Shown piece after piece: positions 1 to 28,410 of a stretch of 28,430 nucleotides of DNA. Location of the stretch: positions 1-28,430 of IMG/VR virus record IMGVR_UViG_3300042541_001064, one strand, 5' to 3'. The notes below the pieces were generated by a model. It saw only the letters and a program-made list of their open reading frames with translations. It was not told the origin of the DNA and ran no database searches. Source of the stretch: a virus. A program made the position numbers and the translations under genes. Numbering within the stretch: the first letter of the stretch is position 1; each line of letters begins with the position of its first letter.

Positions 1-292
1 TGACAGCGGCTTCGCAAGTCACACCCGTGCCTGTAGGGTTATGGACGCTCATGAATTTAATTATTTGGTCGCCCTTCATGCCAGGGTTGCGTTCGACTTC
101 GTTCACAATTTTTAGTTCTTCGTCTGAGAAATCCATCCACGACATTTTGCTGTACCTCCTTTTAGCTACTACACCGAGCACCGCAGAATCATTATACCCG
201 CCACCGGAAGTGCCCTCCAAGTCATTGTATAGATATTTGTGCATTGCTTCTTTTGCCGCTTTTTCTATTGCCATCTCAAAAATCAAACTCAT
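1..292 (-). CDS. Unknown small protein, 3' end cut by window edge
   Basis: An open frame starts at the ATG at 292 and runs off the left edge with no stop (97 codons visible). The start has AAGGA about 10 bases upstream. A second in-frame ATG at 145 has a stronger GGAGG nine bases upstream, so a shorter product starting there (MSWMDFSDEELKIV...) is also possible. The N-terminal part is helical and charged (MSLIFEMAIEKAAKEAMHKY). The middle is Gly-rich, and the part after residue 49 looks like a small helical domain. No family was recognised. It lies downstream of the integrase on the same strand, where phages often keep lysogeny-control or early genes, but nothing here proves such a role. If the two window ends were joined, the frame would stop after one further codon, giving 98 residues. 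Confidence 0.6.
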   Translation of the reverse strand, partial: MSLIFEMAIEKAAKEAMHKYLYNDLEGTSGGGYNDSAVLGVVAKRRYSKMSWMDFSDEELKIVNEVERNPGMKGDQIIKFMSVHNPTGTGVTCEAAV

Positions 293-407
293 GGGCGAAA
301 TATCCTTAGTAACTGGGGAAGTCGTTCGTAGAAAAATTAAGATAACACTATTGTTCACACAATCTACATAAAATATTTAAATTATTTTAAATAATTTTTG
401 GCACTAT
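293..407. other. AT-rich intergenic region after the integrase
   Basis: This non-coding stretch separates the integrase stop from the small partial gene. It holds an AT-only inverted repeat (AAATTATT at 379-386, AATAATTT at 390-397) just after the integrase stop. It has no GC stem, so it is at best a weak terminator, and it could equally be an easily melted site. A second small inverted repeat, ATTGTTCACACAAT at 350-363, sits about 60 bases upstream of the start at 292, where an operator could lie. No convincing -35/-10 pair was found. Confidence 0.35.
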
Positions 408-1622
408 TTACCCTCGGGCTACGCACCGTGCGAGATCGTCACGCTTTTCCGCATAGATTTGTGTGGCGTCAAGGGTGCTGTGGCCGAGTACCGCTTGCGC
501 TCCCTCGAGCCCGTGAGTGCGGCGCACCTGCGTTGCGACGGTGTGTCGGATTTGTAACGGTGTCCAGTGTTCCATCGGGGCACGCTTTGCAGAGGTGGTG
601 TCGAGTTTCTTTTTATCGGTACGAGCGCCCTGGTTGATTGCGAGCCTGCCCTCGTTGTATCTTTTTTGTGCACCCTCAATGGCTCGGGCGTAGCCATCAC
701 CACTGATCATGCCGCTGTAGCCAGCACTCTTGCCAACGCCACGCTGGCACCAGACAGCATCTTTATCCCAAAGCGGTTTTCGTACGGAGCGCATGAGGTC
801 GATGAGATCGGTCTTCATGTAGATTAATCTCGGATCACCCCGGTGAGAGTTCTTGTGTTCCGCTGGAGCGTAGCACCAGAGACCGGGTTCGACCTCCGTC
901 ATCTCCGACCAACGCATGGAGCAGAGCTCCTTGACACGCATCCCGGTTGCGAGGTGGACGGTGAGCACTGCACGGTATAGCGGTTTCAAATGGGGCATGA
1001 TCAGTCTGAAATACTCAACGGGCACGGGGGCGATCTTGTCCGGGTTGCGTAGCGTGGGAGCGGTGCGCCAGTTCAAATGCTGGACGCAGGCCAAGGCTTG
1101 GTATATCTCGACTGGGACAAGTTCCCAGCCGACACCGAGCTTAAACATCTGGCGAATCTTTACGATAGCGTTGTTCACACTGGAGATGCAAAGTTTCTTT
1201 TTCGGTGCGCCTTCAGACTGGGGCATGATGTCTCGGTTGACAATGGCAGCACGAACCGCCACCAGCACTGAGGGCTTAAAATCTTTTATTTTCATTTCAA
1301 GATAAAGGTCGAGCTCCCGCAGTGCCGACTTGATGACACCCACCTGCGATGTGGGTTTCCCGGTCGTCGGGTCTCGGTAGTAGGAAATGGAGTGCTTGAT
1401 CATGGCGTTTACCAGATCAGCGACAACGGGTTCGTGCTCGGGCAGGATTGAGGGCGTGACATCCTCACTGAGGATGTCAGCACACCATCGGAGGTAGGCC
1501 TGCTTGGTAGCTACGAGGCCCCACTGCCCGTGGTAAGTGGCCTTACGGGTTGCGGGGCTGATGCTATACCCTAAGTTTTTTCCCTTATGGTGTAGCAGAC
1601 CGGGTACTTTTTTCTTTGCCAT
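408..1622 (-). CDS. int: Tyrosine recombinase / phage integrase
   Basis: Site-specific integrase that would recombine the adjacent attP with a tRNA-Pro gene in the host. With the start chosen here (404 residues), the visible catalytic residues are Arg229 in the TGMRVKEL box, Lys257 in AEHKNSH, Arg359 in LQIRHT, His381 in VLGHS and Tyr390 in ATQIYAE. The usual His of the HxxR box is Leu356. I believe related planctomycete integrases also vary here, but that is from memory. The N-terminal half should hold arm-binding and core-binding domains. The frame could open at 1676, but that ATG lies inside a likely extended -10 box (1672-1680), so transcription would begin downstream of it. The start at 1622 (MAKKKVPGLL) or 1664 is more likely. 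No strong Shine-Dalgarno precedes 1622. Confidence 0.93.
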   Translation of the reverse strand: MAKKKVPGLLHHKGKNLGYSISPATRKATYHGQWGLVATKQAYLRWCADILSEDVTPSILPEHEPVVADLVNAMIKHSISYYRDPTTGKPTSQVGVIKSALRELDLYLEMKIKDFKPSVLVAVRAAIVNRDIMPQSEGAPKKKLCISSVNNAIVKIRQMFKLGVGWELVPVEIYQALACVQHLNWRTAPTLRNPDKIAPVPVEYFRLIMPHLKPLYRAVLTVHLATGMRVKELCSMRWSEMTEVEPGLWCYAPAEHKNSHRGDPRLIYMKTDLIDLMRSVRKPLWDKDAVWCQRGVGKSAGYSGMISGDGYARAIEGAQKRYNEGRLAINQGARTDKKKLDTTSAKRAPMEHWTPLQIRHTVATQVRRTHGLEGAQAVLGHSTLDATQIYAEKRDDLARCVARG

Positions 1623-1671
1623 GATTTGAACTCGCACGGAAGAAGCCCAAAAGCGAGCCTCCATGCGGAGA

Positions 1672-1708
1672 ATCATAGCAGAAGATGTACAATGTTGTAC
1701 AGTACAAC
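1672..1708 (-). promoter_or_regulatory. Likely int promoter with inverted GTTGTAC repeats
   Basis: On the minus strand TGCTATGAT (1680 to 1672) is a good extended -10 element. Immediately upstream lie three half-sites: GTACAA at 1687-1692, GTTGTAC at 1694-1700 and GTACAAC at 1702-1708. The outer two each form a near-perfect palindrome with the middle one. They occupy the place of the -35 element and lie between the integrase gene and the tRNA-derived core. They could be an operator controlling int, integrase or excisionase arm sites, or both. No standard -35 was seen, consistent with an extended -10 promoter or an activator. Confidence 0.5.
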
Positions 1709-1739
1709 TTTCCCAAAATCACTTTTCTATCAAAAACAA

Positions 1740-1783
1740 GGTCGGGGATACAGGATTTGAACCTGCGACCTCTTCCACCCCAA
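1740..1783 (-). other. attP: attP core: 3' half of a tRNA-Pro(GGG) gene
   Basis: Read on the minus strand, this is a tRNA from the anticodon loop to the 3' end. It has loop TTGGGGT (anticodon GGG with U33 and G37), stem strand GGAAG, variable loop AGGTC, T-stem GCAGG, T-loop TTCAAAT, T-stem CCTGT, acceptor strand ATCCCCG and discriminator A. A C1:G72 pair with A73 is typical of bacterial tRNA-Pro. The next bases are CC then T, so no full CCA is encoded. Upstream (1784-1860) there is no matching 5' anticodon strand directly before the loop, no D-arm and no CGGGGAT acceptor strand, so this is not a whole tRNA gene. The boundary at the anticodon loop is a common crossover point for tyrosine integrases. 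Confidence 0.8.
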
Positions 1784-1912
1784 CCGGAAATATGGAAGAG
1801 TAGCAAAGCCCTATTCTGATAGCGTATTATCATCGCTAATTTTTTAAAATCCGTTAAACTTCTTATGCATTATTATGCAGGAATACGCATGATTTCTAAA
1901 AAAATGTTGTAC
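1784..1912. repeat. attP right arm with short direct repeats
   Basis: The AT-rich stretch 1784-1895 between the tRNA fragment and the next gene carries no gene. It contains TTATGCA twice (1863-1869 and 1873-1879), spaced exactly 10 bases start to start, or one helical turn. A further GTTGTAC copy at 1906-1912 lies just inside the next gene's 3' end. The same heptamer occurs beside the integrase promoter on the other side of the core (1694-1708). Repeats on both sides of a core site are the usual pattern for integrase arm-type or accessory-protein sites. The assignment is inferred. Confidence 0.5.
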
Positions 1913-2126
1913 CACTTTGCCACCATACAAACAGTCTCCGCATCAGGTAGCCACGCACTAGGGAAGCCAAGGTAAACACCCCGCTTAGCGTCAGGTTCTG
2001 CGTGGTCGTGGTTTCGATTCCCATTATTGAGAAAAGGGAAATCTGGATGAGCAAGGAAACAAGAAAGCCCGCGCCCGTGTTGGCGATAGATTCAACCAGG
2101 GACATTCGCCGGGTCTGGCTAGTCAT
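1896..2126 (-). CDS. Small two-helix membrane protein, DUF7220-like
   Basis: A 76-residue protein starting MTSQTRRMSLVES. The pattern is RxMSLVE at the start, a hydrophobic helix (about residues 17-35), a short polar loop, then a second helix ending in a basic YLMRRLFVWW segment. This matches the small phage and bacterial membrane proteins grouped as DUF7220, as I remember them. Their function is unknown. The start at 2126 overlaps the stop of the preceding gene by eight bases, which supports translational coupling. Longer in-frame starts would lie inside that gene. It is the last gene of the late operon before the attP region, and its final codons overlap one GTTGTAC repeat. Confidence 0.75.
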   Translation of the reverse strand: MTSQTRRMSLVESIANTGAGFLVSLLIQISLFSIMGIETTTTQNLTLSGVFTLASLVRGYLMRRLFVWWQSGTTFF

Positions 2127-2574
2127 CGAGGTCGGGAGCGTGAAAGATGGTTGCGCCGTTATGCCAGCCGCCATCGATGCGCTTTGAGCCAGCGCCGTCG
2201 AGCTCCTTCGGGATCACGCAGTCGTGCGGGTGGTACAAGGTTTCGAAGCGGGTGTGTCGGGCGATGAGGACTTGAATCTTTTCCTCGCTGCCCGGTCGTG
2301 CCAGCGTCGGCCCGAGTGGTGGCACCCTGAGTGAGTCTCGCTTGTTCTCCTCTTCAGCTTTTACGCACCCGAGCGAGTGCGACATCTTCGGCGTGTCGGG
2401 CCCGGTGCTCTTGTAGCATTGGCGGCAGAGTTGCCTCGCCTCGTGGGGCTTGCGCTCCCCGCATGAGATGCAGGTGATGAGCCTGCGTGGTATGCGATCA
2501 TAGCACTTGATGCACAAGCCCTTCGCCCGGTGTGGTCGCCTCTGCTTGCAGGTGATGCAGGTAATCTCAGCCAT
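2119..2574 (-). CDS. Protein with two tandem zinc-ribbon modules
   Basis: A 151-residue protein starting MAEITCITCKQ. Two copies of a roughly 24-residue module follow each other. The first begins ITCITCKQRRPHRAKGLC and the second ITCISCGERKPHEARQLC. Each has CxxC, a central His and a second CxxC followed by Tyr, so each could bind one zinc ion. The remainder (residues about 50-151) is polar, with a motif YHPHDCVIPKELDG and no recognised fold. The start overlaps the previous gene by eight bases. Tandem Cys4 or Cys3His modules suggest nucleic-acid or protein binding, but the target is unknown. The two modules probably arose by duplication. Confidence 0.7.
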   Translation of the reverse strand: MAEITCITCKQRRPHRAKGLCIKCYDRIPRRLITCISCGERKPHEARQLCRQCYKSTGPDTPKMSHSLGCVKAEEENKRDSLRVPPLGPTLARPGSEEKIQVLIARHTRFETLYHPHDCVIPKELDGAGSKRIDGGWHNGATIFHAPDLDD

Positions 2575-2917
2575 CCAGTTTGCCTTTGGTTTTGGGTGGT
2601 ATTTCGTAAGGGTCATTACCCCTGCCTCTGCGGATCTTCTTGAGCTTGACCTGAAAGCGGGGGTCGCTCAAGTCGATGAAGTTATCATCGAGGGATTCAA
2701 AGCACTTCTTGCTCGAGCCGTGTCGTGCATACTCAATGACGAACTGCTGGATGAGTAACGGCATGAGGCTATTGACATAATCGCTGTCGACGCCGAAGGT
2801 GATCACTAACCTCCGCAGCATCAGCGTGCGTAGGTCTTCGGGGTCGCTGGCTTTGGCGCCGTTATCACGGTCGCTGTAGCATTGCTCTAAGTGTTTCAAC
2901 CAAGGGTCTTCTTCCAT
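2567..2917 (-). CDS. Unknown acidic-to-basic protein
   Basis: A 116-residue protein starting MEEDPWLKHLEQCYSDRD, preceded by AGGGA six bases upstream. That favours this start over the longer frame beginning at 3043, whose first 42 codons overlap the small membrane gene. The N-terminal half is acidic and helical, the middle contains a hydrophobic helix-like stretch (LMPLLIQQFVIEYARHG), and the C-terminus is strongly basic (KLKKIRRGRGN...KTKGKLDG). No family was recognised. It lies in the cluster of small genes after the holin and overlaps the zinc-ribbon gene, so it is probably co-translated with it. Confidence 0.65.
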   Translation of the reverse strand: MEEDPWLKHLEQCYSDRDNGAKASDPEDLRTLMLRRLVITFGVDSDYVNSLMPLLIQQFVIEYARHGSSKKCFESLDDNFIDLSDPRFQVKLKKIRRGRGNDPYEIPPKTKGKLDG

Positions 2918-2930
2918 GTGTGTTCCCTGT

Positions 2931-3080
2931 CTAGAGAGCGAGAGACCCGAGGAGCCAGAGGAGGAGCTTTGCCAATTTGAGGAAAGGTCGATCGGCGTAG
3001 CAGTGGCAACCACCATAGAGCGTGAACCAGAGGCACCACGCAACGAGCATTCCAGTGATGACCCTGTGGAAGGTAGTCAT
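2931..3080 (-). CDS. Small two-helix membrane protein coupled to the holin
   Basis: A 49-residue frame, too short for most gene finders. Its ATG overlaps the holin stop codon as ATGA (3077-3080), the same junction used between other genes here. It begins MTTFHRVITGMLVAWCLWF, has a short Cys/His loop (GGCHCYADRP), and ends in a second hydrophobic helix (LKLAKLLLWLLGSLAL). It would span the membrane twice. Its position directly after a holin-like gene suggests a second holin, antiholin or lysis accessory, but this rests on position and topology only. The Cys-X2-His-Cys loop is unusual for such a small protein. Confidence 0.6.
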   Translation of the reverse strand: MTTFHRVITGMLVAWCLWFTLYGGCHCYADRPFLKLAKLLLWLLGSLAL

Positions 3081-3298
3081 TTGTTTTTAAGATCGAATCG
3101 ACTCTTGATGTAGGCAAGAGTAGTGCCGCCTGAGATGGCGAGGGTAAAAATGGCGGTGACCATTTTAGTCAGCGAATCCGTGAGCGTTGCACTCTCGGTT
3201 CCGTTAACCACGCCCACGATCACCGCTAACGAAACGCCTTGGAGCACAAGGGTTGTCCAGAACTCTGAAGTCTTCCATCCTGACTTTAACTTATCCAT
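3077..3298 (-). CDS. Holin-like membrane protein
   Basis: A 73-residue protein with AAGGAG six bases before its ATG. It has a short charged N-terminus (MDKLKSGWKTSEFW), a hydrophobic helix at about residues 16-33 (LVLQGVSLAVIVGVV), a polar loop, a second helix at about 45-64 (VTAIFTLAISGGTTLAYI) and a basic tail (KSRFDLKNK). Size, topology and charged ends match phage holins with two transmembrane segments, which open the inner membrane at lysis. It lies between the exported peptidase-like gene and the small ATGA-coupled membrane gene. This supports a lysis cassette, although no standard muramidase or amidase is visible nearby. Confidence 0.75.
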   Translation of the reverse strand: MDKLKSGWKTSEFWTTLVLQGVSLAVIVGVVNGTESATLTDSLTKMVTAIFTLAISGGTTLAYIKSRFDLKNK

Positions 3299-3370
3299 GA
3301 GGCACTCCTTATTATTCGTTCATCGTCCCTCGGAATTTCCATTTATCAACCGCCTCGTAATAACTTTTCG

Positions 3371-4888
3371 CTAAACCTTTTTCTTTCTTGGCTTTACGAC
3401 TTTCCTCTTTACAGTTTCCACCACGACCTCGGCAGGCTTGGGTGTGAACATCGTGCCACCGATGCGCACTAGCGATGCCAACGCAGGGAAACCCGCCACG
3501 GTTAACCCGCCTGCCAGCAACATCACAACGAGTGCGATGGTGCTGTTTCCCGCATCCGGTGCTATGGGCTTTGCGGGGGCTTTTCGTTTGTCAACATCCT
3601 TGTTGGGGTCGTAGTCGGGCCTTACCCGTCTGAGGGCATCAGCGAGCGCATTAGCCCCGCCATTGTAATCGGGTTGACTGTGAAGCACCTTGCCCGCGCC
3701 CCGTGAATCTGGGCCACCCTGCACCATGATTCGGGGTGTACCGGGAAGGAACCCGAGTTCCCTGACTGCCCAGTTGTCGGGTCGGTAGGACTGCACTAAG
3801 AGGGTGTCTGCAAACACACTCAGTGCGGGGTTGCTTTCGAGATCTGCGATCACTGCCTTGCATTCAGACGGCGTCCCAATTACAGTTAGCCGGAGCTTTT
3901 CCCGATCATCGATGAGGTCTTTGCCCTTGCCCTCAATCGCTGAATAGGCCTGCTTGCGTGTAACCTCTCGACCACCGAGCCAGAACTTTTCAACGCCTGA
4001 GTCGATGCGTGAGCGATCGAGCCCGAAGTTCTGCTCCTGTTGTTCGATGACTTTGATGAGGTGTGATGCGGGAGGCGGGAACGGGGAGAGCTCTTGATCC
4101 GCTGACCAGTTGCCGTCGGGCAATAGTTCCCGGTAGCATTGCCTCGCCATGATCCAGACGCCGAGTTGCTTACCTGCGCTGTAGAGTGCTATTTGGTTGG
4201 CATCGATGGCTCGCCATTCGTAGGGCGCTACGACCGCAGCGCTCGAGGGTGTGCCCCATTTCTGCCCGTAGACTTTGACGGGTTCGCTGTCGTTGTATGG
4301 CATCGGGGGAGGCGGGGGAGCGATCACGACCACGGCCCAGCCACCTCCTCCTGAAACCCATCTCTTCTTGAACTCTGCGGGGCTCATCCATTCGTACTTA
4401 GTTTCGCCGGGGAAGTTGTTATCAAGGATCGCTGCCCATTTCTCGGTGAGGTGGACTGCGTTCACCATGTGTGCGATTTTGCCTGTGTAGCGTGGCGAGT
4501 AGCCGTAAGTAACGGAGGGCATTCTGCCGGTGGTGAGGGCAAGCTTAATAAGTGCGGGGTCGCTGCCTTCGTACTGGAGATATTGTGCGCCGTCGCAATA
4601 CTTGGCAAGCATCTTCTCGACCTTGCTAGGGTAGCCACCACCCTGCTCCCTTGTCATCTTCTGCTGGAGCCCGAGGATGCTGTCCACATTCTGCCAGCGC
4701 CCTGCGTGCTCGATCGATGTGAAGACGCAAAGGCCCGCGCCGTCACGGCCTCCGGTGTTCTTCATCTGCTGCGATCCGGGCAAGTCAATTTGAATTTCCT
4801 CGGCACCATCGGGGGAGGTGCGACCACCCTCGACGGAGGTTGCCTCGATTTGACTGAATAGCAAGAGCCATAGGAAGAGGTTCATCAT
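3371..4888 (-). CDS. Exported C39-like cysteine peptidase with thioredoxin-like domain and C-terminal anchor
   Basis: A 505-residue protein that begins with a short hydrophobic signal (MMNLFLWLLLFSQIEA). Spacing from AAGG favours the second Met (start 4885). Residues about 45-190 carry papain/C39-like landmarks: Cys54 in GLCVFTSIEHAGRW, His140 in KIAHMVNAVHL, and Asp156-Asn157 in ILDNNFPGE, followed by a GGGGWAVVV strand. After a Pro-rich linker (190-200), residues about 330-430 resemble a thioredoxin-like fold (PDNWAVRELGF, PRIMVQGG), but no CxxC is visible. A hydrophobic segment at about 449-476 and a very basic tail (KPRKKKV) suggest a C-terminal membrane anchor. It sits upstream of the holin, so it may act as the lysin or as a structural peptidase. 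The domain calls are by motif only. Confidence 0.6.
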   Translation of the reverse strand: MMNLFLWLLLFSQIEATSVEGGRTSPDGAEEIQIDLPGSQQMKNTGGRDGAGLCVFTSIEHAGRWQNVDSILGLQQKMTREQGGGYPSKVEKMLAKYCDGAQYLQYEGSDPALIKLALTTGRMPSVTYGYSPRYTGKIAHMVNAVHLTEKWAAILDNNFPGETKYEWMSPAEFKKRWVSGGGGWAVVVIAPPPPPMPYNDSEPVKVYGQKWGTPSSAAVVAPYEWRAIDANQIALYSAGKQLGVWIMARQCYRELLPDGNWSADQELSPFPPPASHLIKVIEQQEQNFGLDRSRIDSGVEKFWLGGREVTRKQAYSAIEGKGKDLIDDREKLRLTVIGTPSECKAVIADLESNPALSVFADTLLVQSYRPDNWAVRELGFLPGTPRIMVQGGPDSRGAGKVLHSQPDYNGGANALADALRRVRPDYDPNKDVDKRKAPAKPIAPDAGNSTIALVVMLLAGGLTVAGFPALASLVRIGGTMFTPKPAEVVVETVKRKVVKPRKKKV

Positions 4889-4900
4889 GGGCCTTTCGGG

Positions 4901-5263
4901 TTACTGCGCTTTAAGAAGTTTTCGTATTGCTTTGATTTCTGCTTTGGTGAGGAAGTTATCATCCTGGTCTTTATCTCGCTGATCCTTATCGGCTTTTCGT
5001 TTCGCCTTTTCCTCTGGTGTGATATCCTTCACCTTGGTTTTCACTGACCATTTGCCCTTCACCTTTTTCGGTGCTTCAACTTCTGTGTCTTGCGTCAGGT
5101 AGTCCGTGGCTGGTGTGTCCTCAATTTCAACTAGGACATAAGTGCTGCCTTCAATCTCGCCACCCTGCCAGCCATCGCCAAAGCTAGTGTTAGGGTGGTC
5201 ACGCTGTGGATAGGATGGAAATTCAAGGATCGTGTCACCGTTTATTTTTGCGTAATTAGGCAC
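4901..5263 (-). CDS. Small tail-fibre-associated protein
   Basis: A 120-residue protein starting MPNYAKINGDTILEFPSYPQ. The opening (YAxI-x-G-x-V/I-x-x-FP, then DHPNTSF) resembles small phage proteins found after tail fibres, including fibre-assembly or fibre-tip proteins, in which the product's name is repeated as a pattern of sequence and PNTSF. The second half is rich in Lys, Asp and Glu (DKDQRDKDQDDN) and probably forms a helix, ending in IKAIRKLLKAQ. The gene overlaps the end of its upstream neighbour by 22 bases. A role in fibre folding or attachment is plausible but not shown. Confidence 0.55.
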   Translation of the reverse strand: MPNYAKINGDTILEFPSYPQRDHPNTSFGDGWQGGEIEGSTYVLVEIEDTPATDYLTQDTEVEAPKKVKGKWSVKTKVKDITPEEKAKRKADKDQRDKDQDDNFLTKAEIKAIRKLLKAQ

Positions 5264-5862
5264 TGCTCTCCCCTTATGTTGCGTGGTATTAGTTGAATGT
5301 TACTAGGATCGTTATTCATTAGAATCGGTGTACCTTCTGGAACTAAACCTATTTCTTGTAGTGCTTGCCATGCCTCTGGACAGGACATAGCGTTTCTTAT
5401 TTTTGCTGGTGAAGGATGCCCTTGAGCTAAAATCTCTGCGTGAATTTCTTTCGCAACCCATACTGCAAATTCGTTTGGTGCGTTGAACTCAAACATCTGT
5501 TCATCGGTGTAGCCTTCAAGCCTGGTTGGTTCTGCGATCTCGTAGAGTTCGGCCAAGAGTTTTTCCAAGATTGCTATCTCTTGATGATTAAGAATATACG
5601 CTTGCCTCTGACTTTCTTGAACGGATTCAATTTCTAGAATCTCGGCTTCTAGTTCAAGCGTTTCATGCTCTAAGTTGGTGGTCTTTCTGAGGTGTTCAAG
5701 TTTGGCTTTCTTTGCTTGAAACTTTTTCAACCCTACTAGTTCTAATGCTCTGGCACGATGTCGGCCTTCAAGAAAACCTAGTAGCGTTTTTATTTTCTCC
5801 CAAGGTGTCTCACCGATCACTTGAGTACGATAGTTAAATTCCGAGTTTAGTTTTGATGGCAT
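5242..5862 (-). CDS. Coiled-coil protein after the tail fibre, unknown function
   Basis: A 206-residue protein. Residues about 45-105 are dense in Glu, Lys, Leu and Ala with heptad spacing (KAKLEHLRKTTNLEHETLEL...), which predicts a long coiled coil. The C-terminal part (about 120-206) looks globular, with patterns such as FAVWVAKEIHAEI, PAKIRNAM and CPEAWQALQEIG. It starts four bases after the stop of the repeat fibre. Codon use and base composition look more AT-rich than its neighbours, a hint of separate origin judged by eye. It could be a fibre-assembly chaperone or a fibre stem, but no family was recognised. Confidence 0.55.
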   Translation of the reverse strand: MPSKLNSEFNYRTQVIGETPWEKIKTLLGFLEGRHRARALELVGLKKFQAKKAKLEHLRKTTNLEHETLELEAEILEIESVQESQRQAYILNHQEIAILEKLLAELYEIAEPTRLEGYTDEQMFEFNAPNEFAVWVAKEIHAEILAQGHPSPAKIRNAMSCPEAWQALQEIGLVPEGTPILMNNDPSNIQLIPRNIRGEQCLITQK

Positions 5863-5866
5863 TGGT

Positions 5867-6763
5867 TTATGTTCCGTAAGATGCTGCTGCTAGGTCACGC
5901 CGAGCCGAACCTACCCCTGTTACATCACTACCGATAACACCAGAGGAACTTACTAGGTTTGAAATGGAGACATTACTTCCGCTATTACCATAAGCGAAAA
6001 TTGCCTTATCATTTCCGTAGGATGCTGCTGCAAGGGATTGCCTAGCCGTACCCACGCCTGTCACATCGTTACCGATAACTCCAGAGGAACTTACTAGGTT
6101 TGAAATGGAGACATTACTTCCGCTATTACCATAAGCGAAAATTGCCTTATCATTTCCGTAGGATGCTGCTGCAAGGAAATACCTAGCCGTACCCACGCCT
6201 GTCACATCGTTACCGATAACTCCAGAGGAACTTACTAAATTAGACATGGAGGAATTAACAGTACCAGACCCATAAGCGAAAATCGCCTTATCCGTTCCGT
6301 AGGATGCTGCTGCAAGGAGTTGCCTAGCCGTACCCACGCCTGTCACATCGTTACCGATAACTCCAGAGGAACTTACTAGGTTGGACATGGAGACTACAGC
6401 ACTAATATATCCATAAGCGAAAATAGCCTTATCCGTTCCGTAAGATGCTGCTGCAAGGCCATATCTTGCCGAACCTACGCCAGTTACATCATTACCGATC
6501 ACTCCAGAGGAACTTACTAGGTTGGACATGGAGACATTACCTCCGCTAAAACCATAAGCGAAAATAGCCTTATCCGTTCCGTAAGAGGATGCTGCTAGAT
6601 ACGCACGAGCCGAACCTACCCCTGTTACATCACTACCGATAACACCAGAGGAACTTACTAGGTTTGAAATGGAGACAGGCCCAGGCCCATTACCATACCC
6701 AAAGATGGCTCTCCGTCCACCGCCTCCCCTTTTCACACCCATGATTTTTCTAGAGATTGGCAT
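5867..6763 (-). CDS. Repeat-built tail fibre / receptor-binding candidate
   Basis: A 298-residue protein starting MPISRKIMGVKRGGGG at a TAATG overlap with the upstream gene. The longer frame from 6814 would overlap that gene by 52 bases. From residue 18 to the end it consists of six 47-residue repeats of the form KAIFAYG-(variable)-SxSNLVSSSGVIGxDVTGVGxAR-(variable)-LAAASYGxD. Such Gly/Tyr repeats occur in phage fibre proteins and could form a beta-propeller-like or beta-solenoid structure. That fold is a guess. The last repeat lacks one residue before the stop. It lies among tail fibre genes and is followed by small fibre-associated genes, so host recognition is the likeliest role. Confidence 0.75.
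   Translation of the reverse strand: MPISRKIMGVKRGGGGRRAIFGYGNGPGPVSISNLVSSSGVIGSDVTGVGSARAYLAASSYGTDKAIFAYGFSGGNVSMSNLVSSSGVIGNDVTGVGSARYGLAAASYGTDKAIFAYGYISAVVSMSNLVSSSGVIGNDVTGVGTARQLLAAASYGTDKAIFAYGSGTVNSSMSNLVSSSGVIGNDVTGVGTARYFLAAASYGNDKAIFAYGNSGSNVSISNLVSSSGVIGNDVTGVGTARQSLAAASYGNDKAIFAYGNSGSNVSISNLVSSSGVIGSDVTGVGSARRDLAAASYGT
5870..6712 (-). repeat. Six tandem 141-bp repeats in the fibre gene
   Basis: Each 141-bp unit encodes 47 residues. The constant parts are nearly identical even at synonymous positions, for example the string aactccagaggaacttacta recurs. The differences cluster at unit residues 8-13 and 37-38. The last two units in the gene (about 5870-6150) are almost identical, suggesting the newest duplication. 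The variable hexamers in order are NGPGPV, FSGGNV, YISAVV, SGTVNS, NSGSNV and NSGSNV. The variable pairs are AY, YG, QL, YF, QS and RD. There are also small S/N/T exchanges at other sites. Confidence 0.9.
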
Positions 6764-7398
6764 TAGTGGTTCTGGCCTCCTGTCATCGCATACCAAGTCG
6801 TGCCACCATCCCATGTGGTCAGCACAAAGATGTCTACCTTGGCGTTAGTCGATGTCAGCGTGGGGGCAGTTCCACCACTCCACTTAATTGCAGCACCCCA
6901 AGTCACAGCCCTAGCCGTTCCGTCAGCCGTGAATGCCAGTGTGATCCCGAAAGCTGAACCTGTGGTCGGGATGTTGCTTATGGTGAGTGTCGTGATCGCT
7001 GCGTTTAAGCTCACATGAAACACATTTCCAAGGGCACAATTTAGCGTGAGCGTTCCGCTGGAGATTGCTGGTGCGGTTTTCGTTTCGATGAGGCTGGTGA
7101 TCGTTGCGCTTGTGAGCGTTGGACTGGAGGCAAAAACATTTGCCCCTGTGCCAGTTTCATCTGTCAATGCTGCTGCCAAGTTTGCGCTGGTTGGTGTAGC
7201 AAGGAAGGTCGCAACACTTGTGCCAAGGCCAGAAACACCTGTCGAGATTGGTAAGCCGGTGCAACTGGTGAGCGTACCGCTGGAAGGTGTGCCGAGAACA
7301 GGAGTCACCAAAGTTGGTGAGGTCAGCGAAAGCGTGTCACCGCTTTGCAGTTCCTGCACTGTGGTCGTGTTCACTACTAATGGATATCGTGCTGCCAT
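6763..7398 (-). CDS. Low-complexity tail fibre protein
   Basis: A 211-residue protein starting MAARYPLVVNTTTVQELQ, with AGGAG five bases before the ATG. The sequence is rich in Thr, Ser, Gly and Ala and has the phage-fibre phrase SPTLVTPVLGTPSSGTLTSC. The same phrase recurs in the gene at 7687-8541. The C-terminal part (about 110-211) reads as a beta-rich domain typical of fibre tips in many phages (AITTLTISNIPTTGSAFG, AVTWGAAIKWSGG, TTWYAMTGG). It has no enzymatic motif. It is followed by the repeat fibre at a one-base overlap, so the two are probably made in fixed ratio. Confidence 0.75.
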   Translation of the reverse strand: MAARYPLVVNTTTVQELQSGDTLSLTSPTLVTPVLGTPSSGTLTSCTGLPISTGVSGLGTSVATFLATPTSANLAAALTDETGTGANVFASSPTLTSATITSLIETKTAPAISSGTLTLNCALGNVFHVSLNAAITTLTISNIPTTGSAFGITLAFTADGTARAVTWGAAIKWSGGTAPTLTSTNAKVDIFVLTTWDGGTTWYAMTGGQNH

Positions 7399-7406
7399 GT
7401 TTTCTC

Positions 7407-7685
7407 CTAGGTGACGGTTATATTGACGGTGCTGCCACCAAACAAAAGCACTGGCAATGAGCCATTAGAAATACTGACATTGGTCACACTGCCACTAAAT
7501 AGCGTGACAGGTAGCGCACTGGATGTGGAAGCACCTATCTGGACAACACTTGCGGTGCCGTTATCCTTGCGTGTGTAGAGCTTGCCATCGTAGGTATTAA
7601 CCCCAAGCTCACCCAGTGCGAGATCACTTGTGGTTGGCACCCTTGCAGCTACTGCGCTTTGTTTTATCTTGATTAGATTAGCCAT
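7407..7685 (-). CDS. Short tail fibre N-terminal module
   Basis: A 92-residue protein starting MANLIKIKQSAVAARVPTTS. The N-terminal phrase (IKIKxS, then LALGELGVNTYDGKLYTRKD) is a widespread module at the start of phage fibre proteins. The rest is a run of Val/Ser/Gly beta strands (PVTLFSGSVTNVSIS, PVLLFGGSTVNITVT). The start at 7685 is one base after the stop of the upstream gene. An alternative Met six codons earlier would overlap that gene. The protein is much shorter than a complete fibre, so it probably acts as an adaptor or small fibre segment. Confidence 0.7.
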   Translation of the reverse strand: MANLIKIKQSAVAARVPTTSDLALGELGVNTYDGKLYTRKDNGTASVVQIGASTSSALPVTLFSGSVTNVSISNGSLPVLLFGGSTVNITVT

Positions 7686-7686
7686 G

Positions 7687-8541
7687 TTAGAAAGTCCCGC
7701 CATCTAAAATAATGCCACTGCCTAGACTGGTCGCTGATAAAACCACGGTGCCGTTGATGTAGTAGCTCTTGGCTGATGCTATGTTAATATGCTCGCTGCT
7801 TGTCCAGGCATCGGTGCTGTCTACCCAGTTCCATGTGTGATCGGTTAAGCCCTTCAAGGTCAGACCGCCACCATCTGCACCCGCATCGGTGGTGGATGCG
7901 CTAGCAAGAACAATGTTCTTATCACCAACTGCAAGGGTGGTACTAGAGATCGTAGTCGTGGTGCCGTTCACGGTGAGGTCACCACTGAGAACCAAGCTAG
8001 TGCCAGTGGCCACTCCTATATTAGGAGTTACCAGCGTAGGTGAAGTGTCAACTACGAACTTTGATCCGGTTCCGGTCTGGCTAGCAATTACAGTTGCATT
8101 GCCACTGCTTGTGATAACGCCAGTGAGGTTGGCGTTCGTGGTCACTGTTGCCGAGTTCCCACTGGTGGACTGGTTCAGCGTAGGGAATGTGCAATTGGTT
8201 AGGTCACCGCTTGAAGGTGTGCCGAGTGCTGGCGTTACCAGCGTAGGCGAAGTGTTCATCACGAAGGTCGTGCCTGTGCCAGTCTGCGAAGCGATTGAGG
8301 TCGCGTTGCCTACTGATGTTATCGGGCCAGTCATGTTGGCATTTGTGGTGGTTGTTACTGCGAAGTCAGGGCCACCGATTGCGATTACGGATGTTGCCAC
8401 CCCGAAGCTGTCATCACCTAGTCCATAGTAAAGAATCCTCCCGCCTGAGTTCTCGTTGAAGGCAAGTTCTGCTGCGCCTAAAGTTGTAGGTGCGCCAGTG
8501 GAGCCACCTATTCTGCGCTTAATTCTGATCGTGTTCGCCAT
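7687..8541 (-). CDS. Tail fibre protein
   Basis: A 284-residue protein starting MANTIRIKRRIGGSTGAPTT, with AAGGAA eight bases upstream. The first 60 residues are a fibre N-terminal module (IRIKRR...LGAAELAFNENSG). The body contains two similar units, each with TTNAN-(L/M)-TGxITSxGNAT-x-IASQTGTG followed by TSPTLVTP. The C-terminal part (LSGDLTVNGTTTTISSTTL, ADGGGLTLKG, ILDGGTF) resembles fibre shaft-to-tip regions seen in many tailed phages. It ends in LDGGTF, nearly the same ending (LDGGNF) as the next upstream small protein, which may be a shared junction motif. Confidence 0.8.
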   Translation of the reverse strand: MANTIRIKRRIGGSTGAPTTLGAAELAFNENSGGRILYYGLGDDSFGVATSVIAIGGPDFAVTTTTNANMTGPITSVGNATSIASQTGTGTTFVMNTSPTLVTPALGTPSSGDLTNCTFPTLNQSTSGNSATVTTNANLTGVITSSGNATVIASQTGTGSKFVVDTSPTLVTPNIGVATGTSLVLSGDLTVNGTTTTISSTTLAVGDKNIVLASASTTDAGADGGGLTLKGLTDHTWNWVDSTDAWTSSEHINIASAKSYYINGTVVLSATSLGSGIILDGGTF

Positions 8542-23675: not shown

Positions 23676-25375
23676 AGTAGTGTTATTCCTTGGGTGTCGT
23701 AAATATTTGTTGCGTTTAGGCTGCTGACCTGCGCCCGACCTAAAGCCATAATTGTTGCCACGATGCCATCGATTTTCTCGACGGCTCGGCCCTTATGCAT
23801 TTTGATGTTGCCTGCATTGTCTCGCTCGACTTGCACATTCGAGAACATCCAACGCAGCACCGGGTTGCCGTCATGCGCGATCTTCTCGGAGAGTACGAGG
23901 ACTTCTAACTCTTTCGAGGGTGCGGTCATCGCTGCGAAGCCCTGCCCGAAGCCAACAAGCCAATCGGGCCTGCCGTTATTCTTGCCGAGTGTTTCGAGAT
24001 CCTTACTGATCTGGTTAATGTTCCAACGGTCAACGGCGATCTCTTGGATGTTGTACTTTCGGGCCAGTCCATCAATGACCGCCACGACTGCCCTATAGTC
24101 GAGCGATCGCCCAGGCGTAGTCACGATCAGACCTTGGCGTTCCCAATCATCGAGTCGGTGCTTGTTGTTTCTTTCTCGCTCCCTCGCTGCGTCCGCAGGT
24201 GCGAAGAAGGTCGGCACGATCCAGTAGGGTTCATTGGGTTCGATAGGCGGGAAGAGAAGCACGAACGCCGTTAAGTCGAGGGTTGATGAAAGATCAAGAC
24301 CACCGAAACACATTCGACCGGAAAGATCAGGGAGATCGCGGGAGCACGCATCCCAGCGCTCGAGCGAGATCCATCTCGTCTCCTGCGATGTCCACTGGTT
24401 CAAGTGTAATCTTCTGAAAGCGTTTTCGCGGGAAGGGTTCGCACTGGCCTCTGCTACTGCCTTCACAAAGTAATCCGCTTTCACGGTAACGCCATAGTTC
24501 GGGTTCGCCTCGGCCCAAGTCGATTCGGCCTTCCAGTCGCCTGTGCTGGTGTAGATTTTGCTGTAGAAAGTCGGGTCGTGAATGAGCTTATCGTTGACGC
24601 CCTCGGCATACTGGCGAAGCTCCCAGCATAAGCTTTGGCGATCATGCCCTGCGGTCGTGAGTGCGAGCGTTAGCGGTTGCCTTCGGGCCCCGGTTGAGGT
24701 TGTCAACACATCCCACAGTTCTCGGTTTGGTTGAGCATGAACCTCGTCAACGATCACGCCATGAGCGTTGAGCCCGTGTTTCGTGAAGGCGTCGCTTGAT
24801 AGCGATCTGTAGAACGAGTTCGAGGCCTTGTGCTCGATGGTTTTGTTGCGATAGATCCTGAGCATGGTTGAGAGGTTCGGGTTTTCCTCGATCATCTGGC
24901 AGGCTTGGTCGAATACGATTGAGGCTTGATCTTTGTCGCTAGCTGCGCTGTAGATTTCTGCACCTTCCTCACGATCGAGGCAGAGCAAGAAGAGAGCGAT
25001 GCCCGCTGCGAGTGTGCTCTTCCCGTTCTTCCGTGGCACCTCAAGGTAGGCGGTGCGGTACTGGCGCAGGCCATCCTTGCGCACCGTCCCGAAGAGTTCG
25101 TTCAAGAACTGACGCTGCCATTCAGCCAGGACGAAACCCGTGCCCGCCCACTCGCCTTTCGTATGACGCAGGTGGTCACCAAAGAACCTTACGATCGGGT
25201 GATCTTTGGCGGGGGCAGGCTTCTTTTTCCTTGGCGCTCGGGTGGTTATTGGATAGCCCTCATGATGTCGATGATGCCATCTTTGCCGCCATTGGTTGAC
25301 TGGAGGTTCGGTCTCGATGCAGGTGTTAACCCGAACTGGCACTCCAACTTCAAGAGTTGATCGTGCATTTTGCAT
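23672..25375 (-). CDS. terL: Terminase large subunit
   Basis: ATP-driven DNA packaging motor and nuclease. In the 567-residue frame, the Walker A-like loop is VPRKNGKST (113-121), Walker B VIVDE (207-211), a coupling LTTAG (239-243) and a nuclease Asp at 361 (GGLDLSSTLD), with DGIVATIMALGRA near the C-terminus. The first 42 residues overlap the small terminase gene and look like that gene's other frame. The start is uncertain. ATG 25375 has no ribosome site. An ATA at 25249 overlaps the small-subunit stop (ATAA) and lies seven bases after GAGGG. It would give a 525-residue product beginning at TTRAPRKKKPAPAKDHP, a more typical N-terminus. Confidence 0.95.
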   Translation of the reverse strand: MQNARSTLEVGVPVRVNTCIETEPPVNQWRQRWHHRHHEGYPITTRAPRKKKPAPAKDHPIVRFFGDHLRHTKGEWAGTGFVLAEWQRQFLNELFGTVRKDGLRQYRTAYLEVPRKNGKSTLAAGIALFLLCLDREEGAEIYSAASDKDQASIVFDQACQMIEENPNLSTMLRIYRNKTIEHKASNSFYRSLSSDAFTKHGLNAHGVIVDEVHAQPNRELWDVLTTSTGARRQPLTLALTTAGHDRQSLCWELRQYAEGVNDKLIHDPTFYSKIYTSTGDWKAESTWAEANPNYGVTVKADYFVKAVAEASANPSRENAFRRLHLNQWTSQETRWISLERWDACSRDLPDLSGRMCFGGLDLSSTLDLTAFVLLFPPIEPNEPYWIVPTFFAPADAARERERNNKHRLDDWERQGLIVTTPGRSLDYRAVVAVIDGLARKYNIQEIAVDRWNINQISKDLETLGKNNGRPDWLVGFGQGFAAMTAPSKELEVLVLSEKIAHDGNPVLRWMFSNVQVERDNAGNIKMHKGRAVEKIDGIVATIMALGRAQVSSLNATNIYDTQGITLL

Positions 25376-25722
25376 GAGACCATGTAAGGCGGGGTCTCTT
25401 TATAGCCCTTAATCTTTTCGTCATCACCCATGATCTCGATGTGAGTGGGAGTTCCAGCGCTCAAAGAAGCTTCCGCATCAATCCATCGGACGAGACAAAT
25501 CGCATAGCGGGAAAGCGACGAGCCATCAATCTCGGTGAGGACGCCAACACGAAACAAAGCCTCTGACATCTGGTCGAAGATAATCTTTTCACGAGGGCCA
25601 AGAAACTCAGGCGAGTCGAGTTGTGATGCGCTCGGTTGCGGTTCGCCGGTGCGTGTCTTCGCTCTCCATGCTCCACGCATTTTCAAAATTGCTGTCGGTG
25701 TTTTTTTCGGGCCTCGAGCCAT
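25246..25722 (-). CDS. terS: Terminase small subunit, P27 family
   Basis: A 158-residue protein with AGGAG five bases before the ATG. The landmarks fit the P27 family: a basic start MARGPKKTPTAILKMRGAWR, EPQPSA, PEFLGPREKIIFDQMSEAL, VGVLTEIDGSSLSRYAICL and near the end LKLECQFGLTPASRPNLQ, where the LxxxFGLTPASR phrase is diagnostic. It would recognise the packaging site and load the large subunit. The gene lies directly downstream of the HNH gene and the non-coding gap. Confidence 0.92.
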   Translation of the reverse strand: MARGPKKTPTAILKMRGAWRAKTRTGEPQPSASQLDSPEFLGPREKIIFDQMSEALFRVGVLTEIDGSSLSRYAICLVRWIDAEASLSAGTPTHIEIMGDDEKIKGYKETPPYMVSCKMHDQLLKLECQFGLTPASRPNLQSTNGGKDGIIDIMRAIQ

Positions 25723-25810
25723 TACTACTCCTAAATCATCAAAAAAGGGCTATATACTGGTGAAAATCTGTAAACGCATACCACGCAAGGTACTTTGACC
25801 CCTCCTAAAA

Positions 25811-25858
25811 CAAAAAAGACCCCCCTCCCCTTTTTTGCTCCAAAAATGGTCATTTTTG
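25811..25858. other. Inverted repeats and C-rich tract, candidate packaging site (cos)
   Basis: CAAAAAA (25811-25817) is mirrored by TTTTTTG (25831-25837) around acccccctcccc, an unusual pyrimidine-rich tract. Right beside it is a perfect CAAAAATG (25841-25848) / CATTTTTG (25851-25858) repeat at the end of the HNH gene. In many HNH-carrying phages the cohesive-end site lies next to the HNH and small terminase genes, so this is a plausible cos or TerS-binding site. The gap 25723-25849 has no gene. The rest of it is ordinary. Confidence 0.4.
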
Positions 25859-26173
25859 AGGCCTCGCAGAAAGCTTGACGAAACCACCACCGACTCGGTC
25901 TTCATGCCATGTTTTGAGGGCGTGGCACTTGTGGCATAGGGTCTGGAGGTTGTCGAGGGAGTCGGTGCCACCGTGACTCTTTGCGATGATGTGGTCAACA
26001 TCGGTGGCAGGTGCTGCGCACCGAACGCACAAAGGCGAGCGAGCGAAGGCAAGCTTCCTGAGTTGCTGCCATGAATGACCGTAGCCACGACGAGAGGGCG
26101 AAAGCCTAGGTGCTCGGCACCCAGGCGCATCGTGAAACCTGACCTCATGCCTCGGGGGCTTATGTGATCTCAT
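25850..26173 (-). CDS. HNH endonuclease (packaging-associated)
   Basis: A 107-residue protein starting MRSHKPPRHEVRF at an ATGA overlap with the phosphoesterase gene. The HNH zinc motif is clear: CxxC at 49-52, DVDHIIAKSHGG with Asp60-His61, Asn75 in DNLQTL, and CHKCH at 80-84. Small HNH proteins immediately upstream of the P27 terminase genes are known to cooperate with the terminase in cos cleavage in HK97-like phages. The basic N-terminus (PRLSPSRRG) fits DNA binding. The longer frame from 26329 is an overlap artefact. Confidence 0.9.
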   Translation of the reverse strand: MRSHKPPRHEVRFHDAPGCRAPRLSPSRRGYGHSWQQLRKLAFARSPLCVRCAAPATDVDHIIAKSHGGTDSLDNLQTLCHKCHALKTWHEDRVGGGFVKLSARPQK

Positions 26174-27045
26174 GGTTGCTCCGGGAAGGTGTTGTACTCG
26201 GTGTGCGAGTTCGACCTGGTCATCTCGGTCGTGATCCACCACCCGCCAAGTGGCCGAGCTGCGGCACCTCGGCTGATGTGCCACCCGCAGTCGAGCTCTT
26301 GCTTGTAGCTGCCACACCTGACGAACCATTGATCAGTAGTCTCGATGTTCCCTTTACCGCTGACGCTGGTGATGACATTGTGGTCGGTGTTGCGTCTGTG
26401 AATGTGCCCGCTGATAAACACATCAGCCTGCCATTGTGATCGGGTTGCCTGATGCTGGGGGATGCCTCTGCCTGATTCGCCGCCGCCACCATAGCCGTGA
26501 TGAAGGAAGATGCGCTTAGTGCGCACATCGGCTTTACCTGTTGTGCGGTCATTCTTTTGCAATAGATAACACCAGTCCTCACCGTAGATAACGGGAGAGT
26601 TGTATTGGGTGCGCAGTGAGTGGGTGAGTCTATCGATCAGGTCGATCTCGTTTCTCTTGATAACTGCTGCCTCATGATTGCCAGGCGTAATCAGGCATAG
26701 GATAGAGGCGTAAGGCTTGAACCATTCCAGCGCTGTGCTGCTAATCAAATCAAAGTAATTGCTGCCACGATGCTCGGGTCGAAGCGTCTTTGGGTCAGCC
26801 CTCGGGTCATATTTTCCCTGCATCACATCGAAGAGATCGCCCACGATTACAACGGGAGCGTTCTCAGCGAGTGCATAATCCAAATGCTTTTTAAGGAAGG
26901 CTCGGTCGCAGTGCGCTGAATCCCAATGGAGATCGGTCAGTGCGAGAAATCTGAATCGGCTTCCCGATTTCGGGAAGCTGACACGGAGTTCATGGACTCG
27001 ATCTGTAACAGTCCCACAAGACCAGCGCTGTTTTGGCTTTGCCAA
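26170..27045 (-). CDS. Metallophosphoesterase
   Basis: A 291-residue protein. A TTG at 27045 follows AGGAG by seven bases and avoids overlap with the resolvase gene. The ATG at 27102 would overlap it by 34 bases, so the TTG start is preferred. Calcineurin-like metal-binding motifs appear in order: DLHWD (Asp38, His40), GDLFD (Asp70), GNHE (Asn123-His124), HHGYGG and GHIHR. These bind two metal ions and hydrolyse phosphate esters. Similar phage enzymes act on DNA, RNA or cyclic nucleotides, and the substrate cannot be read from sequence. Its place between recombination and packaging genes hints at DNA metabolism. Confidence 0.85.
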   Translation of the reverse strand: MAKPKQRWSCGTVTDRVHELRVSFPKSGSRFRFLALTDLHWDSAHCDRAFLKKHLDYALAENAPVVIVGDLFDVMQGKYDPRADPKTLRPEHRGSNYFDLISSTALEWFKPYASILCLITPGNHEAAVIKRNEIDLIDRLTHSLRTQYNSPVIYGEDWCYLLQKNDRTTGKADVRTKRIFLHHGYGGGGESGRGIPQHQATRSQWQADVFISGHIHRRNTDHNVITSVSGKGNIETTDQWFVRCGSYKQELDCGWHISRGAAARPLGGWWITTEMTRSNSHTEYNTFPEQP

Positions 27046-27068
27046 ATGCAAGCTCCTAAAAAAACTAT

Positions 27069-27437
27069 CTAAGATTGTGTGCGCCTTAAGTAAACAACGC
27101 AAATCGCTCGCACTTTTGCTTGGGTCGGGGGATGATAAGAGGTGGTGATGCGTCGCACATATTTGGTGTTGTCATCATGAAGGTAACCTTTATTTACCAA
27201 CATATCGATGACCGCTTTGTTCGTGTTGTCGAGATCCCTGCGATGAGTCCAACCTTCGCCACCGTGAATCTCGATTAGGATCTCTGCAAGTCCTTCGAGT
27301 GCCTTGCCTCGAGGTATCAAGATCGCGACCTCGGCGAGCCATGCCATATAGCACCTCGCCTTATAGAATTTGCCACGCCGACCCGAGGCCCGGAAGAGTT
27401 GGTTAGTGCTCGGTGGTATCGGCACCTCGAGCCTCAC
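27069..27437 (-). CDS. rusA: RusA-family Holliday junction resolvase
   Basis: A 122-residue protein with a GTG start overlapping the HNH stop (GTGA). It begins with the family phrase VPIPPSTNQLFRASGR. The catalytic acidic residues are Asp68 and Asp70 in RRDLDNTNKAVIDML and Asp88/89 in LHDDNTKYV, matching the DxD and later Asp of E. coli RusA. It would cut four-way DNA junctions during recombination or before packaging. The length is typical. Confidence 0.92.
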   Translation of the reverse strand: MRLEVPIPPSTNQLFRASGRRGKFYKARCYMAWLAEVAILIPRGKALEGLAEILIEIHGGEGWTHRRDLDNTNKAVIDMLVNKGYLHDDNTKYVRRITTSYHPPTQAKVRAICVVYLRRTQS

Positions 27438-27757
27438 GGTCTGGCTTTTATTTTCTGTAATAAAACCTCCGCATCTTTTCGGGCTTGCAGGTTATAGCTC
27501 TTGAAAAGCTTGTGGTGACCAATGAACAGGTGACAGTTGCCACCCGTCTCGCATAAGGTCAGAAGGTTCGAGGGTTCGAGCTCGAGATTCGGGAAGAGAT
27601 GGAACGGGTGAATATGGTGCACCTCGAGCTTGTCGTTAGTGCCACACGCAGCGCAGGTCGGGTTCCTTTTCAGGTGTGCCCCTCGCACCGCTGACCATCT
27701 CGGTGAGCGGGCAGGCAACCCGGCAAAGTATTCGGTGATGGTTTTCACGATGCTCAT
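27434..27757 (-). CDS. HNH endonuclease-like protein
   Basis: A 107-residue protein starting at an ATGA overlap. The zinc/HNH elements are CAACG at 35-39, the catalytic LEVHHIHPFHLFP (His47-His48) and SNLLTLCETGGNCH (Asn64, Cys69, Cys75, His76). The basic N-terminus (ARSPRWSAVRGAHLK) fits DNA contact. It lies in the early part of the operon with RusA. The roles of two HNH proteins in one phage may differ, one linked to packaging (25850-26173) and this one possibly a nuclease of DNA metabolism. Confidence 0.85.
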   Translation of the reverse strand: MSIVKTITEYFAGLPARSPRWSAVRGAHLKRNPTCAACGTNDKLEVHHIHPFHLFPNLELEPSNLLTLCETGGNCHLFIGHHKLFKSYNLQARKDAEVLLQKIKARP

Positions 27758-28038
27758 GGTCGCTCCTCCAGTCGTGACACGATTGTTAAGTAGCCGATCG
27801 CGTCGACGAGGTTATCCCGTTTGTGTGTGTTGCTCTGCCTGACGATCTTAAGTGCTGCCATGAGAAGTCCCACATCGCTCGCACTCACCCGCTGGCCCGG
27901 TGCGAGTTGGCTACGCAAGAGCGTCGTCCAGATCTCAGCAATCTGGCAGAAGCTCTCGCTCGGGTCACCATACTGGAGGCCTCGTTCCGAGATGATGCCA
28001 TCAACCTGGGCGAGAATGTCCTGGTCATTTGTTGCCAT
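27754..28038 (-). CDS. DUF6378-like protein
   Basis: A 94-residue protein. The pattern ISERGLQYGDPSESFCQIAEIWT...SASDVGLLMAALKIVRQSNTHKRDNLVDAIGYL matches the DUF6378 family from phages and bacteria: an RGxxYGDP loop, an IAxxW helix and a D-x-x-x-D-x-x-G-Y helix at the end. The helices resemble an all-alpha (MazG-like) nucleotide-pyrophosphatase fold, but the activity is unproven here. The start lies inside the previous gene by 14 bases. Confidence 0.85.
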   Translation of the reverse strand: MATNDQDILAQVDGIISERGLQYGDPSESFCQIAEIWTTLLRSQLAPGQRVSASDVGLLMAALKIVRQSNTHKRDNLVDAIGYLTIVSRLEERP

Positions 28039-28363
28039 GTTTTGCTATCTCCCGGTCAAAGGTTTTGCGGTCATCAAGCATGGTTGCGATCTCGTCTTCA
28101 AGAAACTCGATACGCTCACGCAAGTTGCGGTGCGTAAGGGACTCCATCTGCTCGTATTTTGCGATCTTGTCTTTAAGACGCTTAATCACCCTCCGGTAGT
28201 TCTCGCCCGCAATACGGGCCCCGTGTGCGGCCCTGAGTGCGGTTGTGGTTAGCCCGGTCGCACGCACCGCGCAGAAGCGGCACGCATACGCCTTGGAACC
28301 TCTTCCTATGGGGTAGCCACCACGGGTGATCGACTTCCCGCACTGCTTGCAAAGATTAGACAT
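28025..28363 (-). CDS. Zn-ribbon plus coiled-coil protein
   Basis: A 112-residue protein with AGAGG about ten bases before the ATG. Residues 1-31 hold Cys5, Cys8, Cys28 and Cys31 (CKQCGK...CRFCAV), a zinc ribbon. Residues about 60-105 (RVIKRLKDKIAKYEQMES...LRERIEFLEDEIATML) have heptads, so a coiled coil is likely. No family was recognised. It is the first gene of the operon seen in the window, and a promoter/operator-like inverted repeat precedes it. Confidence 0.75.
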   Translation of the reverse strand: MSNLCKQCGKSITRGGYPIGRGSKAYACRFCAVRATGLTTTALRAAHGARIAGENYRRVIKRLKDKIAKYEQMESLTHRNLRERIEFLEDEIATMLDDRKTFDREIAKHGNK

Positions 28364-28410
28364 TCTCGTTTATCCCTCTTATAGAGTGTGGATTATGGGA
28401 TAAATGAGAA
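28363..28410 (-). promoter_or_regulatory. Inverted repeat ahead of the first gene
   Basis: TTCTCGTTTATCCC (28363-28376) is mirrored by GGGATAAATGAGAA (28397-28410), with 13 of 14 positions complementary, separated by 20 bases. It covers the region just upstream of the first start codon, including its Shine-Dalgarno (AGAGG) and a CATAAT box (28397 to 28392). It could be a repressor operator with two half-sites or an RNA hairpin over the ribosome site. No good -35 was found. Confidence 0.55.

Follow-up and report, generated by a model that had tools for sequence, protein, structure and literature searches.

Does the tRNA gene fragment that lies between the integrase gene and the late genes of this virus represent the attachment site of an unintegrated phage (attP), or one end of an element integrated in a bacterial chromosome? 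The window, that is, the whole stretch analyzed here, is the entire IMG/VR record IMGVR_UViG_3300042541_001064, a linear sequence of 28,430 bases whose main genes all lie on the minus strand. Along that strand, early genes at the right end are followed by those for terminase, portal, protease, major head protein, head–tail adaptor, and tail, and then by small late genes, the DUF7220 gene, the tRNA fragment, a tyrosine integrase gene (int), and, at the left end, a single truncated gene. This annotation bears out the gene order given by an earlier reading of the sequence without database searches (the sequence-only reading), with the integrase on the 3′ side of the fragment and the late genes on its 5′ side. 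BLAST searches against 50,697 phage records gave one trivial match for positions 1–8000 of the window and none for the integrase, so that the phage has no named relative there. Adjoining the tail genes, a minus-strand open reading frame (5867–6814) is made up of a 141-bp unit, repeated in tandem about 5.7 times (84% match), that encodes YGTDKAIFAYG...NLVSSSGVIGNDVTGVG; relatives have related arrays that vary from one to another. In the early region, a metallophosphoesterase gene (26170–27102; compared with L017:15417–16367) is replaced in a relative about 90% identical to the window (G006) by a phosphoadenosine phosphosulfate reductase-like gene, located between the homologues of 27434–27757 and 27069–27437, which points to variable cargo at this place.

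The core of the locus, TTGGGGTGGAAGAGGTCGCAGGTTCAAATCCTGTATCCCCGAC on the minus strand, is the 3′ half of a tRNA-Pro(GGG) gene, beginning at the first anticodon-loop base (TT-GGG-GT) and continuing through the 3′ anticodon stem, variable loop, T arm, and acceptor strand to the discriminator, without a 5′ half. ARAGORN found no complete tRNA in the window, confirming the proline tRNA fragment described before; its extent, given then as 44 bases (1740–1783), is right to within one base, 43 bases being identical to the host gene described below and the 44th not. No second copy exists in the window, the next best match having 19 mismatches in 44 positions, which also answers the concern that the same bases might recur at the right end of the phage. 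An Rfam scan of the window gave no match, and folding of the fragment gave no significant structure. An inverted repeat around the core (CTCTTCCA/TGGAAGAG) was considered as a pair of core sites or as a tRNA with an insert; both readings were rejected, the repeat being absent from most other phages and a 5′ half being missing. The whole attP, about 220 bp, is assigned to 1694–1912, and the limits of the sequence-only reading (1672–1912) coincide with the outermost predicted arm site (1906–1912) and the predicted int promoter (1672–1701).

Table 1. Features of the attP region, with the predicted products of integration (offsets in bases).
Feature	Position	Strand	Remarks
Gene downstream of int	2..358	−	Incomplete at the left window end
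Tyrosine integrase gene (int)	408..1622 (first in-frame ATG at 1676)	−	404 aa from the start common to relatives; PF00589, phrog_1
Predicted int promoter, TGTACA-18-TATGAT	1672..1701	−	Consensus scan; putative function
Predicted arm-type site P′2 (GTACAAC)	1694..1700	−	Offset +83
Predicted arm-type site P′1 (inverted GTACAAC)	1702..1708	+	Offset +75
attP common core	1741..1783	−	43 bases, from the anticodon loop through the discriminator and one further base; all 43 shared with the host gene
Anticodon loop TTGGGGT	1777..1783	−	Predicted 7-bp overlap; strand exchange would occur here, judging from the start of attB identity
Three 10-bp direct repeats TGCRTANNNN in P arm	1860..1889	−	Sequence and comparison
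DUF7220 (PF23858) gene	1896..2174	−	Final late-side gene before attP
Predicted arm-type site P1 (GTACAAC)	1906..1912	−	Offset −129; in the final codons of the DUF7220 gene
Predicted attL string			GCGCGCTTCC + core + CTTGTTTTTG
Predicted attR string			TATTTCCGG + core + TATTTTC

The counterpart of the core in a bacterial chromosome was found in Planctomycetota. An exact scan of 84,980 species genomes with the 44 bases returned zero matches, owing to a difference between host and phage at the last base (C against T); with that base dropped, the only matches in the whole collection were five contigs, all from Planctomycetota MAGs of one genus, each carrying a complete and intact tRNA-Pro(GGG) gene composed of CGGGGATTGGCGCAGATTGGCTAGCGCGCTTCC, the same 43 bases (43/43 identical to the core), and TATTTTC. 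The match is not due to chance, since a 42-base pattern is present with 0 mismatches in only 5 of the 95 genomes of the host family, the two next best differing in the anticodon stem. Three of the five MAGs have titles with apparent lake or station codes (LacPavin, ZE, Loc). One MAG with the same tRNA allele is titled Candidatus Kuenenia stuttgartiensis (L031), a name that looks wrong because the genome collection groups all five in one genus of seven genomes. One of the five (G013) holds a 4,962-base contig that is 84% identical to positions 24996–28386 of the window, which may be regarded as an independent link to the host, subject to binning error. The sequence-only reading had proposed to look for such a tRNA gene with attL/attR sites nearby; the gene is thus at hand, while neither attL nor attR occurs in the five host MAGs, which have no prophage at tRNA-Pro(GGG), among the viral contigs described below, or in a scan of viral contigs for the host 5′ half. 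In freshwater phage work, tRNA attachment sites have served for host prediction before (PMC6802176).

The same 43–46 bases are present in 32 other IMG/VR contigs (33 with the window), once per contig and never within a complete tRNA. The scan for the host 5′ half detected none in viral contigs, and the host 3′ flank (ATTTTC) is absent from the core wherever the 3′ side is readable among the 33 contigs; hence neither host flank, which would mark the end of an integrated prophage, is present on either side of the core. The integrase lies on the tRNA 3′ side in 24 contigs, those in which it is readable over 250 aa, and all 23 close relatives of the integrase in IMG/VR are encoded on these core-bearing contigs. 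Relatives that extend beyond the left end of the window continue into phage genes, not into the bacterial genes that the sequence-only reading had named as evidence against itself. In G006, 5.9 kb with phage replication genes lies between the two ends of the window: the homologue of the truncated gene at 2..358 is followed by a gene for a helix-turn-helix (HTH) protein and by a primase-helicase gene (Prim-Pol/AAA protein). The HTH gene, 0.8 kb downstream of int in a region missing from the window, has a weak excisionase match (phrog_66, E 4.5e-4). The window itself has no terminal repeat or closing overlap and is a 28.4-kb fragment. Three relatives of 33.8–35.4 kb (G006, G109, and G114), on the other hand, have terminal direct repeats of 141, 163, and 113 bases, respectively, so that the circular or concatemeric ends proposed for inspection are found in relatives and not in the window. 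Since these overlapping ends lie at different map positions, the three maps are closed or circularly permuted through attP; the closures of G006 and G114 are bridged by continuous sequence in relatives, and that of G114 also by the window.

Taken together, we conclude with a probability of about 0.93 that the region 1694–1912 represents, in unintegrated form, the attP of a phage that is temperate and lambda-like and whose host belongs to a planctomycete genus known from lake MAGs. Lysogeny is deduced from the parts, because no integrated copy was found. In the predicted mechanism, the core-binding and catalytic domains of the integrase (Int) would bind the anticodon-stem half-sites of the core, and its N-terminal β–β–β–α domain would bind arm sites about 129 bp upstream and 75–89 bp downstream; Int would then recombine the 7-bp loop TTGGGGT with its identical counterpart in the host tRNA-Pro(GGG) gene. 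The crossover is predicted to fall within the anticodon loop, as this is where identity between core and attB begins: in the window at the first base of the loop, and in each of the 33 contigs no more than one base away, only three of them having one extra matching 5′ base. Integration would join the host 5′ half to the phage 3′ half beside int, giving attL with a complete tRNA, and the host 3′ half would remain as attR at the end with the lysis genes. When these products were built in silico, ARAGORN recognized a full tRNA-Pro(ggg) in attL, on the int side, and none in attR or attP. Counted against this reading were the lack of attL/attR, the fallibility of MAG binning, the Leu in box II of the integrase, the absence of a closing overlap in the window, and the small number of arm switches.

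A 3′ half beside late genes is also what an attR looks like, and the fragment could in principle be the attR of an integrated prophage, with the integrase at 408–1676 belonging to a neighboring element or to a second, tandem copy of the prophage; a tandem double lysogen would have an attP between its copies. This explanation is very improbable, given that relatives from independent samples keep the int–core–late order and continue through replication genes until the terminase side is reached again, that three of them close into circles, that the host flank ATTTTC is absent, and that the arm motifs of P and P′ match. Even the tandem version would contain a genuine attP. The attP part of the sequence-only reading is therefore supported by the host tRNA, the gene order, and the circular relatives, whereas the free state that it claimed is the likeliest reading and not a proven one, as a tandem double lysogen would show an attP too. 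The chance is slighter still that the junction is an assembly artefact, in which a 43-bp core common to the host and many phages fused two different phages. Several contigs (L003, L008, L044, and L045) do end 1–40 bases from the core, as expected at a graph branch if a sequence shared by host and phage breaks assembly graphs. However, G003, G004, and G006, which come from other metagenomes, show the same junction of left and right flanks at the core with 88–93% identity, and in 14 of 14 attPs both sides of the core have the same arm-site class.

The integrase matches PF00589 above the cut-off and possesses the catalytic set of tyrosine recombinases (R, K, H, R, H, Y) with the box II His replaced; R247, K275, R377, H399, and Y408 (422-aa numbering) are invariant. 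The replacing residue, Leu374 (L356 in the 404-aa numbering), is found in every readable member of the integrase clade. In comparison with solved structures, full-length lambda Int is the best match to the integrase model, in which the N-domain is predicted to adopt a β–β–β–α fold whose strands 1 and 2 contain residues 10 and 21.

The motifs listed in Table 1 as P1, P′1, and P′2 are predicted to be arm-type sites of Int, a role suggested by their arrangement and by the modeled N-domain; P′1 and P′2 together form the palindrome GTTGTACTGTACAAC. In 14 of 14 dereplicated attPs, the motifs are located at near-constant offsets, −129 (or −130 and −141) in the P arm and, in the P′ arm, +74 to +76 (inverted) as well as +82 to +84 in most, and the motif words are rare in the remainder of the contigs. 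The direct repeats at 1860..1889, present in the clade of the window and weaker or absent elsewhere, are candidate excisionase or host-factor sites. Although the motif varies between phages (GTACAAC, GTACTAC, GTACAGAA, and TGACGGAA), its class is equal on both arms in all 14 attPs. G012 and G109, for example, have catalytic domains 98% identical and N-domains 54% identical, and belong to different arm classes. A tree that leaves out the N-domain requires at least six changes of motif class and at least four of the broad class (ending in -AC or -GAA). Three N-domain positions with one fixed change, G8/K, L10/C, and I or V21/T (404-aa numbering), split the broad classes perfectly, as do a few more variable N-domain positions, compared with 0 of 337 columns elsewhere in the protein. 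It is somewhat more probable than its negation that phages sharing one attB have repeatedly switched arm specificity, on both arms together with Int positions 8, 10, and 21, while keeping the core and catalytic specificity and a near-fixed attP geometry. An independent-pairs sign test of this arm code gave p 0.25 for 3 pairs, the 3–4 independent switches being too few for significance; the motif was picked after inspection of the data, and physical linkage is a possible confounder.

Such linkage is central to a different explanation of the covariation, namely that int is controlled by a repressor or excisionase whose operators are the GTACAAC-type motifs, and that the N-domain varies with them merely as a neighbor. 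All the parts lie within about 400 bp and could be exchanged together, and the palindrome overlaps the −35 element of the predicted int promoter. We nevertheless regard it as unlikely: the motif also occurs beyond the core, at −129, and the separating residues are confined to the N-domain, in strands 1–2 of the predicted arm-binding fold, and recur in distant clades (G117 and G118). An autoregulated int with a promoter overlapping att is, moreover, already known (PMC2951348), and both roles may hold. By virtue of the overlap between its promoter and the P′ arm sites, int is probably autoregulated; in KplE1 and many tRNA-linked integrases, such promoter overlap means autorepression (PMC2951348).

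The arrangement is the textbook one, a lambda-type attP and Int with a tRNA anticodon-loop target. Phage lambda has the arrangement predicted here, with arm sites on both sides of the core and an Int with an N-terminal arm domain, and the same module order, whereas the present phage is distinguished by its tRNA target, the Leu in box II, unrelated arm sequences, and a P′ arm that is upstream of int and overlaps its promoter. In Cluster K mycobacteriophages (CrimD, Anaya, Adephagia, and Pixie), two pairs of arm sites, one inverted, flank the core, resembling the layout predicted here, and the arm consensus differs from relative to relative together with Int N-terminal residues 17 and 19; Tweety has its core, but not its arms, in common with Pixie (PMC3203893). 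Their targets, however, are tmRNA and tRNA-Lys genes in mycobacteria, in contrast to the several arm classes seen here over integrases 48–100% identical, with one attB and a planctomycete host. The intS/argW system of KplE1 (PMC2951348) resembles the present one in its tRNA target, an int pointing away from att, and a promoter inside the recombination region, the last feature being the basis of the autoregulation predicted here; it differs in the tRNA, host, and integrase subfamily, and autoregulation is so far a prediction in our phage. Relative to the literature searched, what is new is the genus of the host, how large the family is, and the clean series of arm switches.

These results link an uncultured phage family to one genus of uncultured lake Planctomycetota. 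With the whole attP of about 220 bp delimited, an integration vector for these bacteria becomes testable. With the covarying arm sites, the way in which integrase N-domains read DNA can be put to a direct test; earlier mycobacteriophage work, within the literature searched, touched on this with two residues only (PMC3203893). If the switching is true, it would constitute a readable recognition code for arm binding, and co-infecting phages could share a target without sharing regulation.
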